Assembly: GCF_010093345.1 (NCBI RefSeq)
Contig: NZ_PDWT01000004.1
Coordinates: 124,001-188,000 of the forward strand
DNA from: Pseudoxanthomonas yeongjuensis
GTDB lineage: Bacteria; Pseudomonadota; Gammaproteobacteria; Xanthomonadales; Xanthomonadaceae
Direction: 5' to 3'
Length of the DNA stretch: 64,000 nt
Part shown: one piece after another, positions 14,466 through 18,462 of the stretch
Numbering within the stretch: position 1 is the stretch's first letter
Layout: every line of letters starts with the position of its first letter
Program-made: the position numbers and the translations under genes
The notes under the pieces: model-generated
What the model was told of the DNA's origin: nothing
Databases searched by the model: none
What the model saw: only the letters and a program-made list of their open reading frames with translations

Positions 14466-15542
14466 ATGACCCTCGCCGCGAAATTCGAGATCGAATACCT
14501 GCAATACCTCGGCTCGGACGGGAAACCCGTCCGCGACGACCTGCCGGAGGCCGCGCGCGATACCGGGCGACTGCTGGAACTGTTCAAGCAGATGCTGTTC
14601 GTGCGCACCTTCGACACCAAGTCGGTGGCCCTGCAGCGCACCGGCAAGCTGGGCACCTACGCCTCCTGCCTCGGCCATGAGGCCACCCATGTCGGCATCG
14701 GCGCCTCGATGCGTCCGGAGGACACCTTCGCCCCCAGTTACCGCGAATACGGCGCGCAGTTCATGCGCGGCGTGCGCCCGCGCGAAGTGCTGCTGTACTG
14801 GGGCGGCGACGAACGCGGCAACGATTTCGCCAACGCCCGCCACGACTTTTCCTGGTGCGTGCCGATTTCCACCCAGTGCCTGCACGCGGCCGGCGCGGCG
14901 CTGGCGTTCAAGCTGCGCGGCGAAGCGCGGATCGCGGTCAGCACCTGCGGCGACGGCGGATCGTCGAAGACCGATTTCTACGCCGCGCTCAATTCCGGCG
15001 GCGCTTACTCCTTGCCGCTGGTGCTGTGCGTGATCAACAACGGCTGGGCGATCTCGGTACCGCGCTCGGCCCAGACCGGGGCCCAGACTTTGGCCCAGAA
15101 AGGCATCGCCGGCGGTAATTTCTGCCTGCAGGTGGATGGCAACGATCTGATCGCGGTACTCGAGGCCATGCGCATCGCCACCGAACGCGCGCGCAGCGGC
15201 CTGGGCACCAGCGTGCTGGAGTTCGTCACCTACCGCCTCGGCGACCACACCACCGCCGACGACGCGCGCCGCTACCGCGACGATGCCGAAGTCAAGGCGG
15301 CCTGGGAACGCGACCCGATCCCGCGGCTGCGGACCTGGCTGACTGCGCAGGGCCTGTGGAGCGAAGCGGAAGAAGCCACGTGGAAAGAGCAATGCGGGCG
15401 TCTGGTCGACATCGAGGTCAATGCCTATCTGGAAACGCCGGTGCAGCCGGTCGAGGCCATGTTCGATTACCTGTACGCCGATCCGCCGCCGGAATTGCTG
15501 GCGCAGCGCGCCGCAGCGATCGCCGCGGAGGGCCGCGCATGA
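14466..15542 (+). CDS. 2-oxoacid dehydrogenase E1 component, alpha subunit (branched-chain or pyruvate type)
   Basis: A 358-residue thiamine-diphosphate enzyme subunit that decarboxylates a 2-oxoacid. The ThDP-binding motif runs from TCGDGGSSKTDFYAAL to VLCVINNGWAISVP (GDG...NN spacing). The LGHEATHVGIGASM and RLGDHTTADDARRY segments are typical of the branched-chain 2-oxoacid dehydrogenase branch of the family. The ATG at 14466 was chosen over upstream in-frame codons because those would overlap the operator. The beta-subunit gene overlaps by four bases (ATGA). It is the first gene of an E1alpha-E1beta-SH3-E2 operon; no E3 gene is present here. Substrate is probably branched-chain 2-oxoacids, but pyruvate cannot be excluded. 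Confidence 0.88.
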   Translation: MTLAAKFEIEYLQYLGSDGKPVRDDLPEAARDTGRLLELFKQMLFVRTFDTKSVALQRTGKLGTYASCLGHEATHVGIGASMRPEDTFAPSYREYGAQFMRGVRPREVLLYWGGDERGNDFANARHDFSWCVPISTQCLHAAGAALAFKLRGEARIAVSTCGDGGSSKTDFYAALNSGGAYSLPLVLCVINNGWAISVPRSAQTGAQTLAQKGIAGGNFCLQVDGNDLIAVLEAMRIATERARSGLGTSVLEFVTYRLGDHTTADDARRYRDDAEVKAAWERDPIPRLRTWLTAQGLWSEAEEATWKEQCGRLVDIEVNAYLETPVQPVEAMFDYLYADPPPELLAQRAAAIAAEGRA

Positions 15543-16609
15543 ACGTGGAAGTCGCGAAGACTGTAGGAGGGGCTTCAGCCCCGACCGCTTCGGTGGGGGT
15601 CGGGGCTGAAGCCCCTCCTGCAAAAGCCGACCTGCCGATCACCCTGATCGAAGCCATCACCCAGGCCCTGGCCTGGGAAATCGCCCACGACGACTCGGTG
15701 GTGGTGCTGGGCGAGGATGTGGGCGTGAACGGCGGCGTGTTCCGCGCCACCGCCGGACTGCAGCAACGCTTCGGTTCCGAACGCATCCTCGACACGCCGC
15801 TGGACGAAACCACCATCGCCGGCCTGACCGTGGGCATGGCCGCGATGGGCATGAAACCGGTGGCCGAGGCCCAGTTCGACGGCTTCGTCTACCCGATGGT
15901 CGATCACCTGATCTGCCACGCCGCACGCATGCGCTACCGCACCCGCGGCCGCCTGCATTGCCCGATGGTGCTGCGCGTGCCGTGGGGCGGCGGCATCCGC
16001 GCGCCGGAACACCATTCCGAAGCCAACGAATCCATCTTCACCAACGTGCCCGGCCTGCGCGTAGTCATGCCGTCCTCGCCGCAGCGCGCCTACGGCCTGC
16101 TGCTCGCGGCGATCCGCGACCCGGATCCGGTCATCTACATGGAGCCCAAGCGCATCTACCGCCAGTACAAGGAACTGGTGGTCGACGATGGCGAAGCGCT
16201 GCCGCTGGACGTGTGCTTCGTACTGCGCGACGGCAGCGACGTGACCCTGGTGACCTGGGGCGCGCAAGTGAAAGAGACGCTGGAAGCGGCCGAGGCCCTG
16301 GCCAAGGAAGGCATCAGCGCCGAGGTCATCGACGTAGCCACGCTGAAGCCGCTGGACTTCGACACCATCGCCGAATCGGTGAGCAAGACCGGCCGCTGCG
16401 TGATCGTGCACGAAGCGCCGCGCACCGCGGGCTTCGGCGCGGAAATCGCCGCGCGACTGGCCGAGCAGTCGATGTACGACCTGCTGGCGCCGGTGGAGCG
16501 CGTCACCGGTTACGACACCCATATCCCGCTGTTCCGGCTGGAGATGAAATACCTGCCGAGCGTGGAGAAGATCGTCGCCGCAGCGAAGCGCGTGCTGGCC
16601 GCAGGCTGA
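15539..16609 (+). CDS. 2-oxoacid dehydrogenase E1 component, beta subunit, with repeat-derived N-terminal insertion
   Basis: A 356-residue beta subunit that completes the E1 heterotetramer. The conserved part begins at LPITLIEAITQALAWE (about residue 31), with VLGEDVGVNGGVFRATAGL, ERILDTPLDETTIAGLTVGM and the C-terminal VTGYDTHIPLFRLE block. Residues 9-27 (GGASAPTASVGVGAEAPP and neighbours) are encoded entirely by dispersed repeat R4 and are not part of the normal fold. The start overlaps the alpha stop (ATGA) and the stop overlaps the next gene (TGATG), so the operon is translationally coupled. Confidence 0.92.
   Translation: MNVEVAKTVGGASAPTASVGVGAEAPPAKADLPITLIEAITQALAWEIAHDDSVVVLGEDVGVNGGVFRATAGLQQRFGSERILDTPLDETTIAGLTVGMAAMGMKPVAEAQFDGFVYPMVDHLICHAARMRYRTRGRLHCPMVLRVPWGGGIRAPEHHSEANESIFTNVPGLRVVMPSSPQRAYGLLLAAIRDPDPVIYMEPKRIYRQYKELVVDDGEALPLDVCFVLRDGSDVTLVTWGAQVKETLEAAEALAKEGISAEVIDVATLKPLDFDTIAESVSKTGRCVIVHEAPRTAGFGAEIAARLAEQSMYDLLAPVERVTGYDTHIPLFRLEMKYLPSVEKIVAAAKRVLAAG
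15563..15621. repeat. Dispersed palindromic repeat R4, inside the E1beta coding sequence
   Basis: GTAGGAGGGGCTTCAGCCCC faces an inverted GGGGCTGAAGCCCCTCCTGC. The 59-base element is read in frame through codons 9-27 of the E1beta gene without introducing a stop. Its GTAG falls out of phase as a stop here (..TGTAGG read as codons GTA GGA). Confidence 0.85.
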
Positions 16610-16959
16610 TGCGCCGTGCCCGGGTCATCGCCGCGCATCGCGCACCGGGTCGCCTACCGATCCGCGTGGCGGCCGGCGATCCGGTGACCCTGGGCGAGCG
16701 CGACAGCGATTGGCCGCAGTTCGTGTGGACTACATTGGCTCAGGGATTGGGCGGCTGGATCCCGGCGGTGCTGTTCGATCGCGACAGCGGCCAGGCCACT
16801 GCGCTGAGCGACTACGACACGCGCGAACTCGCGACGGAGATCGGCGAGGTGTTGATCCTCCATTCCGAACAAGCGGATTGGTGGTGGGCGGAAAACGCGA
16901 ACGGCGACAGCGGCTGGATTCCGGCGCGCGCCATCGAATTCATCGACGAAAATACCTAG
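16609..16959 (+). CDS. Small tandem SH3-like domain protein in the E1/E2 operon
   Basis: A 116-residue protein without signal or membrane segment. Two bacterial SH3-like repeats are visible. The first is residues about 15-60, with GDPVTLGERDSDWPQFVW and GLGGWIPAVLF; the second is residues about 66-113, with YDTRELATEIGE, WWWAENANG and DSGWIPARAIEFI. The start overlaps the E1beta stop by one base (TGATG), and E2 begins 12 bases downstream, so it is expressed with the complex. Its role is unknown. A scaffold or adaptor role for the dehydrogenase complex is only a guess from position. Confidence 0.8.
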   Translation: MRRARVIAAHRAPGRLPIRVAAGDPVTLGERDSDWPQFVWTTLAQGLGGWIPAVLFDRDSGQATALSDYDTRELATEIGEVLILHSEQADWWWAENANGDSGWIPARAIEFIDENT

Positions 16960-16971
16960 GAAGAGCAACAC

Positions 16972-18390
16972 ATGAGCGACAGCAAGACCTTCCACCTGCC
17001 GGACCTGGGCGAAGGCCTGCCCGATGCCACCATCGTCGAATGGTTCGTCAAGGAAGGCGACGTGATCCGCCTGGACGAACCGCTGGTGTCGATGGAAACC
17101 GCCAAGGCCGTGGTGGAAGTGCCCTCGCCGGTTTCCGGCAAGGTGCTGAAGCTGGCCGGCAACGCCGGCGACATCGTCGTGACCGGGGCGATGCTGGCCG
17201 AATTCGAACCCGACCCCAACCTGCCGCAACGCGCGGACGGACAGGACACCGGGCATTCGCATGGCGCACCGAAAAGCGCGGGCGCCGCCATTGCAGGAGG
17301 GGCTTCGGCCCCGACCGTGTCCGAAGCTGGCGGAGCTGAAGCCCCTCCCACAAGTGTCGAGCGCGACGATGCGGGCACCGTGGTCGGCGCCATGCAATCC
17401 TCCAACGCCGTGCACCAGGAACAGGCGGTCGCGGTCGGTGGCATCAAGGCGATGCCGGCGGTGCGCGCGCAGGCGAGGAAACTCGGCGTGGACCTTTCCC
17501 GCGTCCGCGCCACCGGCGCCGATGGCGCGGTGACCATGGCCGATGTAAAGCAGGCCGCGGCGAATGGCTTCGCTGCCGTAGGAGCGCCCCTTGGGCGCGA
17601 TGCTTCTGCGGTCGTCGGCAAGCAAGAGCATCGCGGGCAAGGCCCGCTCCTACCTCCCCAAGGCAGTCCCGTTGCGGGACAAGAGCGCGAGCGCACCCAG
17701 TTGTCCGCCTCCGGCAAGCCCATGCGCACCCAGCCGCCGAATGTTTCCGTCAGCGGTCAGCCCGAACAACTCAAGGGCGTCCGCCGCAACATGGCCCGGG
17801 TCATGGCCGATGCGCATGCCAAAGTGGTGCCGACCACGCTCAGCGACGACGCCGACGTGCAGGCATGGCAACCGGGCAACGACGTCACCGTGCGCCTGAT
17901 CCGCGCCATCGTCAGTGGCTGCAAGGCGGTACCGGCCATGAACGCGTGGTTCGATGGCGAGAAACTGAGTCGCACCCTGCATCCGCAGGTCGACATCGGC
18001 ATCGCCGTGGACACCGACGACGGCCTGTTCGTTCCGGCGTTGCGCAATGCCGACATCCTCGATGCGCGCGGCATCCGCGAAGGCGTCAACCGCCTGCGCG
18101 TGCAGGTGGAAGACCGCAGCATCCCGGCTTCGGAACTGACCGGCTACACGATTTCCCTGTCCAACTTCGGCATGTTCGCCGGCCGCTACGCCACCCCGGT
18201 GGTGGTGCCGCCGTGCGTGGCGATCGTGGCCGCCGGCCGCGCCCGCCACCAGGTCATGCCGGTGATGGGCGGCTTCGAGTCGCACAAGATCATCCCGCTG
18301 TCGGTGACCTTCGACCATCGCGCCGCGACCGGTGGCGAGGCGGCACGCTTCCTGAAGGCGCTGATCGACGACCTGGCCCTGTCTTCGTAG
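16972..18390 (+). CDS. 2-oxoacid dehydrogenase E2 component (dihydrolipoyl acyltransferase)
   Basis: A 472-residue core subunit that transfers the acyl group from E1 to CoA. An N-terminal lipoyl domain (residues about 5-80) carries the lipoylated Lys45 in VSMETAKAVVEVPSPVSGKV. A long linker follows, then an E3/E1-binding domain (residues about 158-196; MPAVRAQARKLGVDLSRV). The catalytic domain runs from about residue 255, ending with the active-site FDHRAATGGEAARF. Residues about 108-127 and 203-228, both in linkers between domains, are encoded by dispersed repeats R5 and R6. The TAG stop belongs to repeat R7. It works with the two upstream E1 genes; the E3 is supplied from elsewhere. Confidence 0.93.
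   Translation: MSDSKTFHLPDLGEGLPDATIVEWFVKEGDVIRLDEPLVSMETAKAVVEVPSPVSGKVLKLAGNAGDIVVTGAMLAEFEPDPNLPQRADGQDTGHSHGAPKSAGAAIAGGASAPTVSEAGGAEAPPTSVERDDAGTVVGAMQSSNAVHQEQAVAVGGIKAMPAVRAQARKLGVDLSRVRATGADGAVTMADVKQAAANGFAAVGAPLGRDASAVVGKQEHRGQGPLLPPQGSPVAGQERERTQLSASGKPMRTQPPNVSVSGQPEQLKGVRRNMARVMADAHAKVVPTTLSDDADVQAWQPGNDVTVRLIRAIVSGCKAVPAMNAWFDGEKLSRTLHPQVDIGIAVDTDDGLFVPALRNADILDARGIREGVNRLRVQVEDRSIPASELTGYTISLSNFGMFAGRYATPVVVPPCVAIVAAGRARHQVMPVMGGFESHKIIPLSVTFDHRAATGGEAARFLKALIDDLALSS
17293..17351. repeat. Dispersed palindromic repeat R5, inside the first E2 linker
   Basis: GCAGGAGGGGCTTCGGCCCC faces GAGCTGAAGCCCCTCCCAC. It is of the same type as R4 and is read in the same phase, giving GGASAPT and GAEAPP peptides as in E1beta. 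It lies between the lipoyl and E3-binding domains. Confidence 0.82.
17578..17653. repeat. Dispersed palindromic repeat R6, inside the second E2 linker
   Basis: GTAGGAGCGCCCCTTGGGCG faces an inverted arm ending CAAGGCCCGCTCCTAC. It is read in frame as residues about 203-228 of E2, between the E3-binding and catalytic domains. The arm type matches R1 and R7. Confidence 0.85.
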
Positions 18391-18462
18391 GAGCGCGCCT
18401 TGCGCGCGATGCTTTGCGCGTTTTCCATTCGAAACAGCATCGCGGGCAAGGCCCGCTCCTAC
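18387..18462. repeat. Dispersed palindromic repeat R7, supplying the E2 stop codon
   Basis: GTAGGAGCGCGCCTTGCGCG is paired with an arm ending GCAAGGCCCGCTCCTAC. Its leading GTAG contains the TAG stop of the E2 gene; the rest fills the gap before the VOC gene. Confidence 0.85.

Follow-up and report, generated by a model that had tools for sequence, protein, structure and literature searches.

In-frame palindromic repeats in the E1beta N-terminus and E2 linkers of a Pseudoxanthomonas operon, and the turnover of repeat families in E2 linkers of the Lysobacteraceae

Repeats within the E1beta and E2 genes

The window, by which we mean the whole 64,000-nucleotide stretch of Pseudoxanthomonas yeongjuensis DNA analysed here, contains an operon encoding E1alpha, E1beta, a small protein of about 116 residues and E2, i.e. 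a complex of the pyruvate-dehydrogenase type (Table 1; domain and linker boundaries were taken from Pfam domains). Three inverted repeats (R4, R5 and R6) lie inside E1beta and E2. The TAG stop codon of E2 (18386-18390, within TCT TCG TAG GAG) is itself part of the GTAG tag of a further REPIN at the 3' end of the gene. The small spacer ORF is absent from one relative (G006), in which E2 follows E1beta directly.

Table 1. Features of the operon, in window coordinates
Feature	Position	Strand	Description
E1beta gene	15539..16609	+	Transket_pyr and Transketolase_C domains; start codon overlaps E1alpha stop (ATGA)
R4	15562..15622	+	F-type REPIN (GTAGGAGGGGCTTCAGCCCCGACC...); E1beta residues 8-28
Small ORF between E1beta and E2	~16609-16959		start overlaps E1beta stop (TGATG)
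E2 gene	16972..18390	+	lipoyl 6-77, E3-binding 158-193, catalytic 265-465
R5	17291..17353	+	F-type REPIN; E2 residues 107-127; lipoyl/E3-binding linker (linker 1)
R6	17578..17653	+	T-type REPIN (GTAGGAGCGCCCCTTGGGCGCGATG...); E2 residues 203-228; E3-binding/catalytic linker (linker 2)
E2 3'-end repeat	18387..18462	+	further T-type REPIN

The repeat units of R4-R6, 55-76 bp in length, are paired inverted repeats of the GTAG REP/REPIN type, with arms of 25 nt (R4; 96% complementary), 23 nt (R5; 83%) and 32 nt (R6; 81%). R4 carries a GTAG tag and R6 has GTAG at both ends, whilst the tag of R5 has decayed to GCAG; F-type copies in general carry mostly GTGG or GTAG. Folding of all three, and of the REPIN at 18387-18462, is far above that of shuffled sequence (RNA z-scores of -10.4, -5.1 and -4.7 for R4, R5 and R6, respectively), and the R4 RNA hairpin, at about -61 to -62 kcal/mol, lies some 25 nt past the E1beta start codon.

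The repeat DNA is predicted from the reading frames to encode parts of the proteins: about 21 residues of E1beta from R4 (VGGASAPT...GAEAPPA), about 21 of E2 from R5 (AGGASAPT...GAEAPPT) and about 26 of E2 from R6 (VGAPLGRD...HRGQGPLLP). A preliminary description of this DNA had regarded the three as dispersed palindromic repeats read in frame at flexible sites, with R4 and R5 in one phase, and these points are borne out: the arms are as measured above, copies occur genome-wide (see below), no stop falls within R4, R5 or R6, the first arm of R6 shares the phase of the other two, and all three lie outside Pfam domains, at one N-terminus and in two linkers. A structure prediction for E2 was uninformative on the linkers (mean pLDDT 49, with the lipoyl domain low too).

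The phase is of consequence, as the alternative in which TAG comes first stops and the third phase gives an Arg/Phe-rich peptide. R4-R6, together with a copy in a second E2 gene described below, are each read in the phase that gives VGGASAP or VGAPLG, and a copy in MinC, which gives AGGASAP, is in that phase also.

For R4, a different reading is that the repeat lies outside the protein, with translation of E1beta beginning downstream. According to the study of intragenic REPs (PMC3733652), REPs at N-termini are frequently annotated as coding in error, and an AGGAGG motif is present within R4. We nevertheless hold this reading to be very unlikely, in view of the E1beta start, which overlaps the stop of E1alpha here and overlaps or adjoins it in many relatives; of the conserved PITLIEAIT, which follows directly after R4 with no ATG between; and of the 20 in-frame codons that relatives retain at this place.

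Copies in the genome and the genes that carry them

Two repeat families are represented, F (GTRGGAGGGGCTTCAGCCCCGA) by R4 and R5 and T (GTAGGAGCGCCCCTTGGGCGCGATG) by R6. Copies of the R4/R5 type number about 45 in the genome and those of the R6 type more than 60; BLAST, with both strands counted, gave 75 R4-like and 110 R6-like matches, and near-exact F-type arms number 39 + 35. The paired arrangement is seen in 116 catalogued REPINs, a figure from a scan that sought pairs and so carries no measure of the share of single REPs. There are 11 Y1_Tnp loci in the genome, four of which are directly adjoined by REPs: T-type REPINs lie on both sides of the Y1-transposase gene at C1:27259 (L075), and S, U and Y types flank three others. 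No RAYT was found directly beside F-type copies in the genome.

The repeats have the traits of the GTAG REP superfamily, namely a GTAG-like tag on a stem-loop, a high dispersed copy number, a paired arrangement and association with a Y1 transposase, although the last does not extend to the F type. R4-R6 are thus probably REPINs, i.e. paired GTAG-type REPs, and non-autonomous. Their copy number and the neighbouring RAYT-like genes point to transposition as the route of spread.

Which of these copies are read as protein was judged with a codon-usage score, applied to the 116 REPINs. Only R5, R6 and one REPIN in MinC are in frame and flanked on each side by coding sequence; R4 is additionally open in frame, at the start of E1beta. 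The other F-type half-sites on the list, when scanned, yielded one more copy, located in a second E2 within its linker, and a marginal ORF, which we discounted. For the F type this survey of genic REPINs covered the listed sites, and for the T type a part of the copies; it drew on the regions around matches and a 400-kb sample. All of the clear genic cases are in linkers or at a terminus.

The MinC REPIN lies in frame in the interdomain linker (G000:C11:48282-48339; L163). Several relatives have decayed forms of it, graded as a series when judged by eye, and G006 has a fresh-looking copy. In the second E2 (G000:C21:375832; L194) the linker contains a single F-type REP in frame (VGGASAPT); four relatives are without this peptide and have a linker of nearly equal length, the automatic comparison of this linker having covered 5/30 genomes owing to a narrow motif. 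The preliminary description had placed in-frame repeats in one enzyme complex only, which must be given up because MinC and the second E2 carry copies as well. With about 45 R4/R5-type copies in the genome, two would fall by chance in E1beta and E2 with a probability of ~4e-4, and with about 110 copies, three would do so with a probability of ~5e-5, both being crude estimates because the same copies prompted the search.

Turnover, length and decay among relatives

We gathered E1beta, E2 and MinC from 38 Pseudoxanthomonas genomes, and E2 also from 80 named family loci. A recognisable dispersed repeat is present in linker 1 or linker 2 of 36 of 93 Lysobacteraceae E2 genes; the repeats, which are dispersed in the genomes of those relatives too, represent at least five families and occur in six genera (Pseudoxanthomonas, Stenotrophomonas, Xanthomonas, Luteimonas, Lysobacter and [Pseudomonas] boreopolis). 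Homologues outside the genus are without the particular segments encoded by R4-R6, so that the outcome which the preliminary description had named as refuting it, conservation of the segments in distant homologues without the repeat DNA, did not occur. One contig labelled Bacillus subtilis SK7B5 (L137) has a Stenotrophomonas-like E2 operon, probably through contamination or mislabelling.

It might be supposed that these are ordinary Ala/Pro/Gly-rich linkers that look repeat-like only through high G+C, given that linkers of the family are already Ala/Pro-rich and the repeat peptides are similar to them. When the 104,886 bases of non-linker DNA from the same E2 genes were used as a control, however, 14 GTAG patterns found 0 matches, and a first, broader pattern set found one weak match. 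The linker segments match, exactly or nearly so, repeats present tens of times per genome, and the hairpins are far above shuffles. The ordinary-linker reading is hence extremely improbable as a general account and is refuted for R4-R6; it may hold for the most decayed cases, for example MinC in G013.

The same linker holds different families in different species. In the window and in L077, L078 and L079, linker 1 has families F, F, U and U, respectively, and linker 2 has T, P, T2 and T2; a remnant of the first arm of R5 is present in L077. S-type REPINs occupy linker 1 in a 12-species group, whilst the families in linker 2 comprise F, F2 and T as well as a longer repeat of the CTCCCCTCTCCC type (P/Q). 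In linker 2 of G006 (L283) the REPIN is a hybrid whose left arm is of the F type and whose right arm is of the S type. Mapped on a tree built from the E2 DNA outside the linkers, the repeat states require at least 6 changes in linker 1 and at least 22 in linker 2, counts that are rough, being based on one gene with many weak forks and with U-type copies unscored. At the N-terminus of E1beta, about ten species have S-type half-REPs and the window genome, G004 and G015 have the F type; no recognisable repeat was found there in G010 and G030.

The choice of phase is uniform throughout. Every GTAG-type first arm in the linkers of the 93 E2 genes is read in phase 0 (S 13, F 7, F2 4, T2 3 and T 1, the F and F2 patterns overlapping), and the GTAG-type first arms in E1beta are likewise in phase 0.

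The length of the linkers is nearly constant. In Pseudoxanthomonas, linker 1 averages 51.5 aa with a REPIN vs 48.1 aa without, and linker 2 34.7 aa vs 33.6 aa, in a comparison of present states and not of before and after, where some linkers scored as repeat-free may hold decayed repeats. One REPIN encodes about 20-25 residues, yet linkers with a repeat exceed those without by only 1-3 aa; the P/Q class alone lengthens its linker (49.6 aa). In E1beta the gain over the nearest repeat-free relatives is about 7 aa. The addition of 19, 20 and 26 residues put forward in the preliminary description consequently fails as a net gain, and the hairpin DNA appears largely to replace linker DNA and not to lengthen the linker. 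Repeat-free relatives differ from the window in their linkers at other places too. Among the relatives compared, none showed a clean empty site bearing a target duplication, so insertion with trimming is indistinguishable from replacement by recombination or template switching.

Decay of the palindrome can be followed at R4, where the hairpin of about -61 kcal/mol in the window corresponds to hairpins of -29 and -32 kcal/mol in G004 and G015, with 20 codons kept in frame; palindrome scores in the same comparison were 22, 18 and 18 of 23.

Interpretation and relation to known systems

The explanation that we favour, and consider probable, is that REPINs spread, were tolerated only where they gave a stop-free and linker-like reading, and then decayed or were replaced. 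The elements presumably spread by means of RAYT/Y1 transposases, most copies coming to lie between genes; a genic copy would survive only in a disordered segment and in the phase giving VGA.../GAEAPP, and would be purged elsewhere. This phase would be acceptable as it contains no stop and gives a Gly/Ala/Ser/Pro-rich peptide resembling the natural E2 linker, which may well be nearly neutral. The flexible parts of the E1beta/E2 complex and of MinC would then be landing sites that repeatedly accept different repeat families. After acceptance, the linker would return to about its former length as linker DNA elsewhere was lost; the palindrome would in some lineages decay whilst the reading frame persists.

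Part of the evidence counts against this explanation, since simple neglect after insertion does not predict slowly changing arms and shared rare codons. In the linker-1 S-type REPIN (12 species with alignable loops) the synonymous divergence is 0.080 for the arms, 0.269 for the E2 core and 0.53 for the loop; a rate as low as that of the arms was found in 0.17% of random codon sets and 1.7% of paired windows. The arms keep GGA in 12/12 and TCA in 11/12 species, codons which in the E2 core account for about 1% of Gly and about 0% of Ser codons, respectively. Ultra-rare codons ancestral to the arms are common to 9-12 species, whereas 88/93 rare-codon columns in the core are common to only one or two. 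The low arm rate is moderate evidence, in view of the 1.7% for paired windows, and the sharing of rare codons is the stronger sign. In the E1beta half-REP, GGA is kept in 9/9, and the synonymous rate by itself is not significantly low. The conservation of the S-REPIN arms may reflect selection on the hairpin or its codons, gene conversion from other copies, or slow mutation.

Domestication would explain the slow arms and the retained GGA and TCA codons of the S-REPIN, the retained GGA of the E1beta half-REP, and the strength of the R4 RNA hairpin (-62 kcal/mol) so shortly after the start codon: the hairpin DNA or RNA, or the rare codons, would be functional in the linker and the repeat kept on that account, for example to slow the ribosome at a domain boundary or to tune the output of E1beta and E2. 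We think this unlikely, as sister species hold different, unrelated repeats at the same places, two members of the S clade (L047 and L057) have no linker-1 REPIN, the R4 palindrome decays in G004 and G015, and inspection of the aligned arms by eye showed no compensatory changes. It is likewise only a tentative suggestion that REP arms in E1beta and E2 of one Pseudoxanthomonas clade serve as a conserved nucleic-acid signal, a hairpin or rare-codon cluster, in addition to encoding a linker peptide.

Alternatively, other genomic REPs could overwrite the linker arms by gene conversion or re-copying, which would leave the arms uniform and let the loops diverge, as the synonymous divergences of 0.08 and 0.53 have it. 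Donors are abundant: in most of the genus a genome has from tens to more than 100 S-type copies, and the F/S hybrid in linker 2 of G006 fits such exchange. The genomic pool, however, mixes GTA and GTG tags, yet the genic copies have GTG in 11/12 and never GTA. The pool also mixes TCA, TAA and TGA centres; the absence of TAA and TGA from genic copies is uninformative, because such variants would stop translation. We regard overwriting as a possible but doubtful source of the arm uniformity.

Under the favoured explanation of spread, tolerance and decay, these linkers are a countable natural case of mobile DNA turning into protein, in which tolerance, phase choice, length control and decay are measurable. 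The question of coding REPs being inert, or being kept for nucleic-acid structure, can also be put to the test with them.

Several elements of this picture are already published. The portions considered here of the work of Di Nocera et al. (2013; PMC3733652) describe intragenic GTAG/CGTC REPs that are mostly paired, in frame and encode 20-30 aa, suggest that coding REPs occupy flexible linkers or loops, and report the TAG of the REP tag serving as a stop codon and, for recB, REPs placed at nearly the same position in two Xanthomonas species. R4-R6 resemble these REPs in being GTAG-tagged, paired, in frame and sited in linkers or at an N-terminus, as does the E2 stop in being the TAG of a tag.

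Like the REPINs and RAYTs of other studies (PMC3116915, PMC2817692, PMC8266576), the units consist of two opposed REPs with a spacer, and Y1-type transposase genes with matching flanking REPs are present; those works, in the portions considered, centre on extragenic copies, and the F-type copies differ in having no RAYT found beside them here. Rickettsia palindromic elements (Ogata et al.; reviewed in PMC10969869) are similarly in-frame palindromes in unrelated genes, read as peptide, but are described in Rickettsia and measure ~150 bp; the unit size of 55-76 bp rules out R4-R6 as members of that class, in keeping with their being GTAG REPINs. The main texts of the open-access literature searched yielded no description of REPs in the E2 of 2-oxoacid dehydrogenases.

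In comparison with what is described in those portions of PMC3733652, what is new is the reuse of the same linkers by at least five repeat families over six genera of the Lysobacteraceae, supported by non-linker counts, a count of phases, linker lengths that stay nearly constant, a decay series and conservation at the level of the arms.
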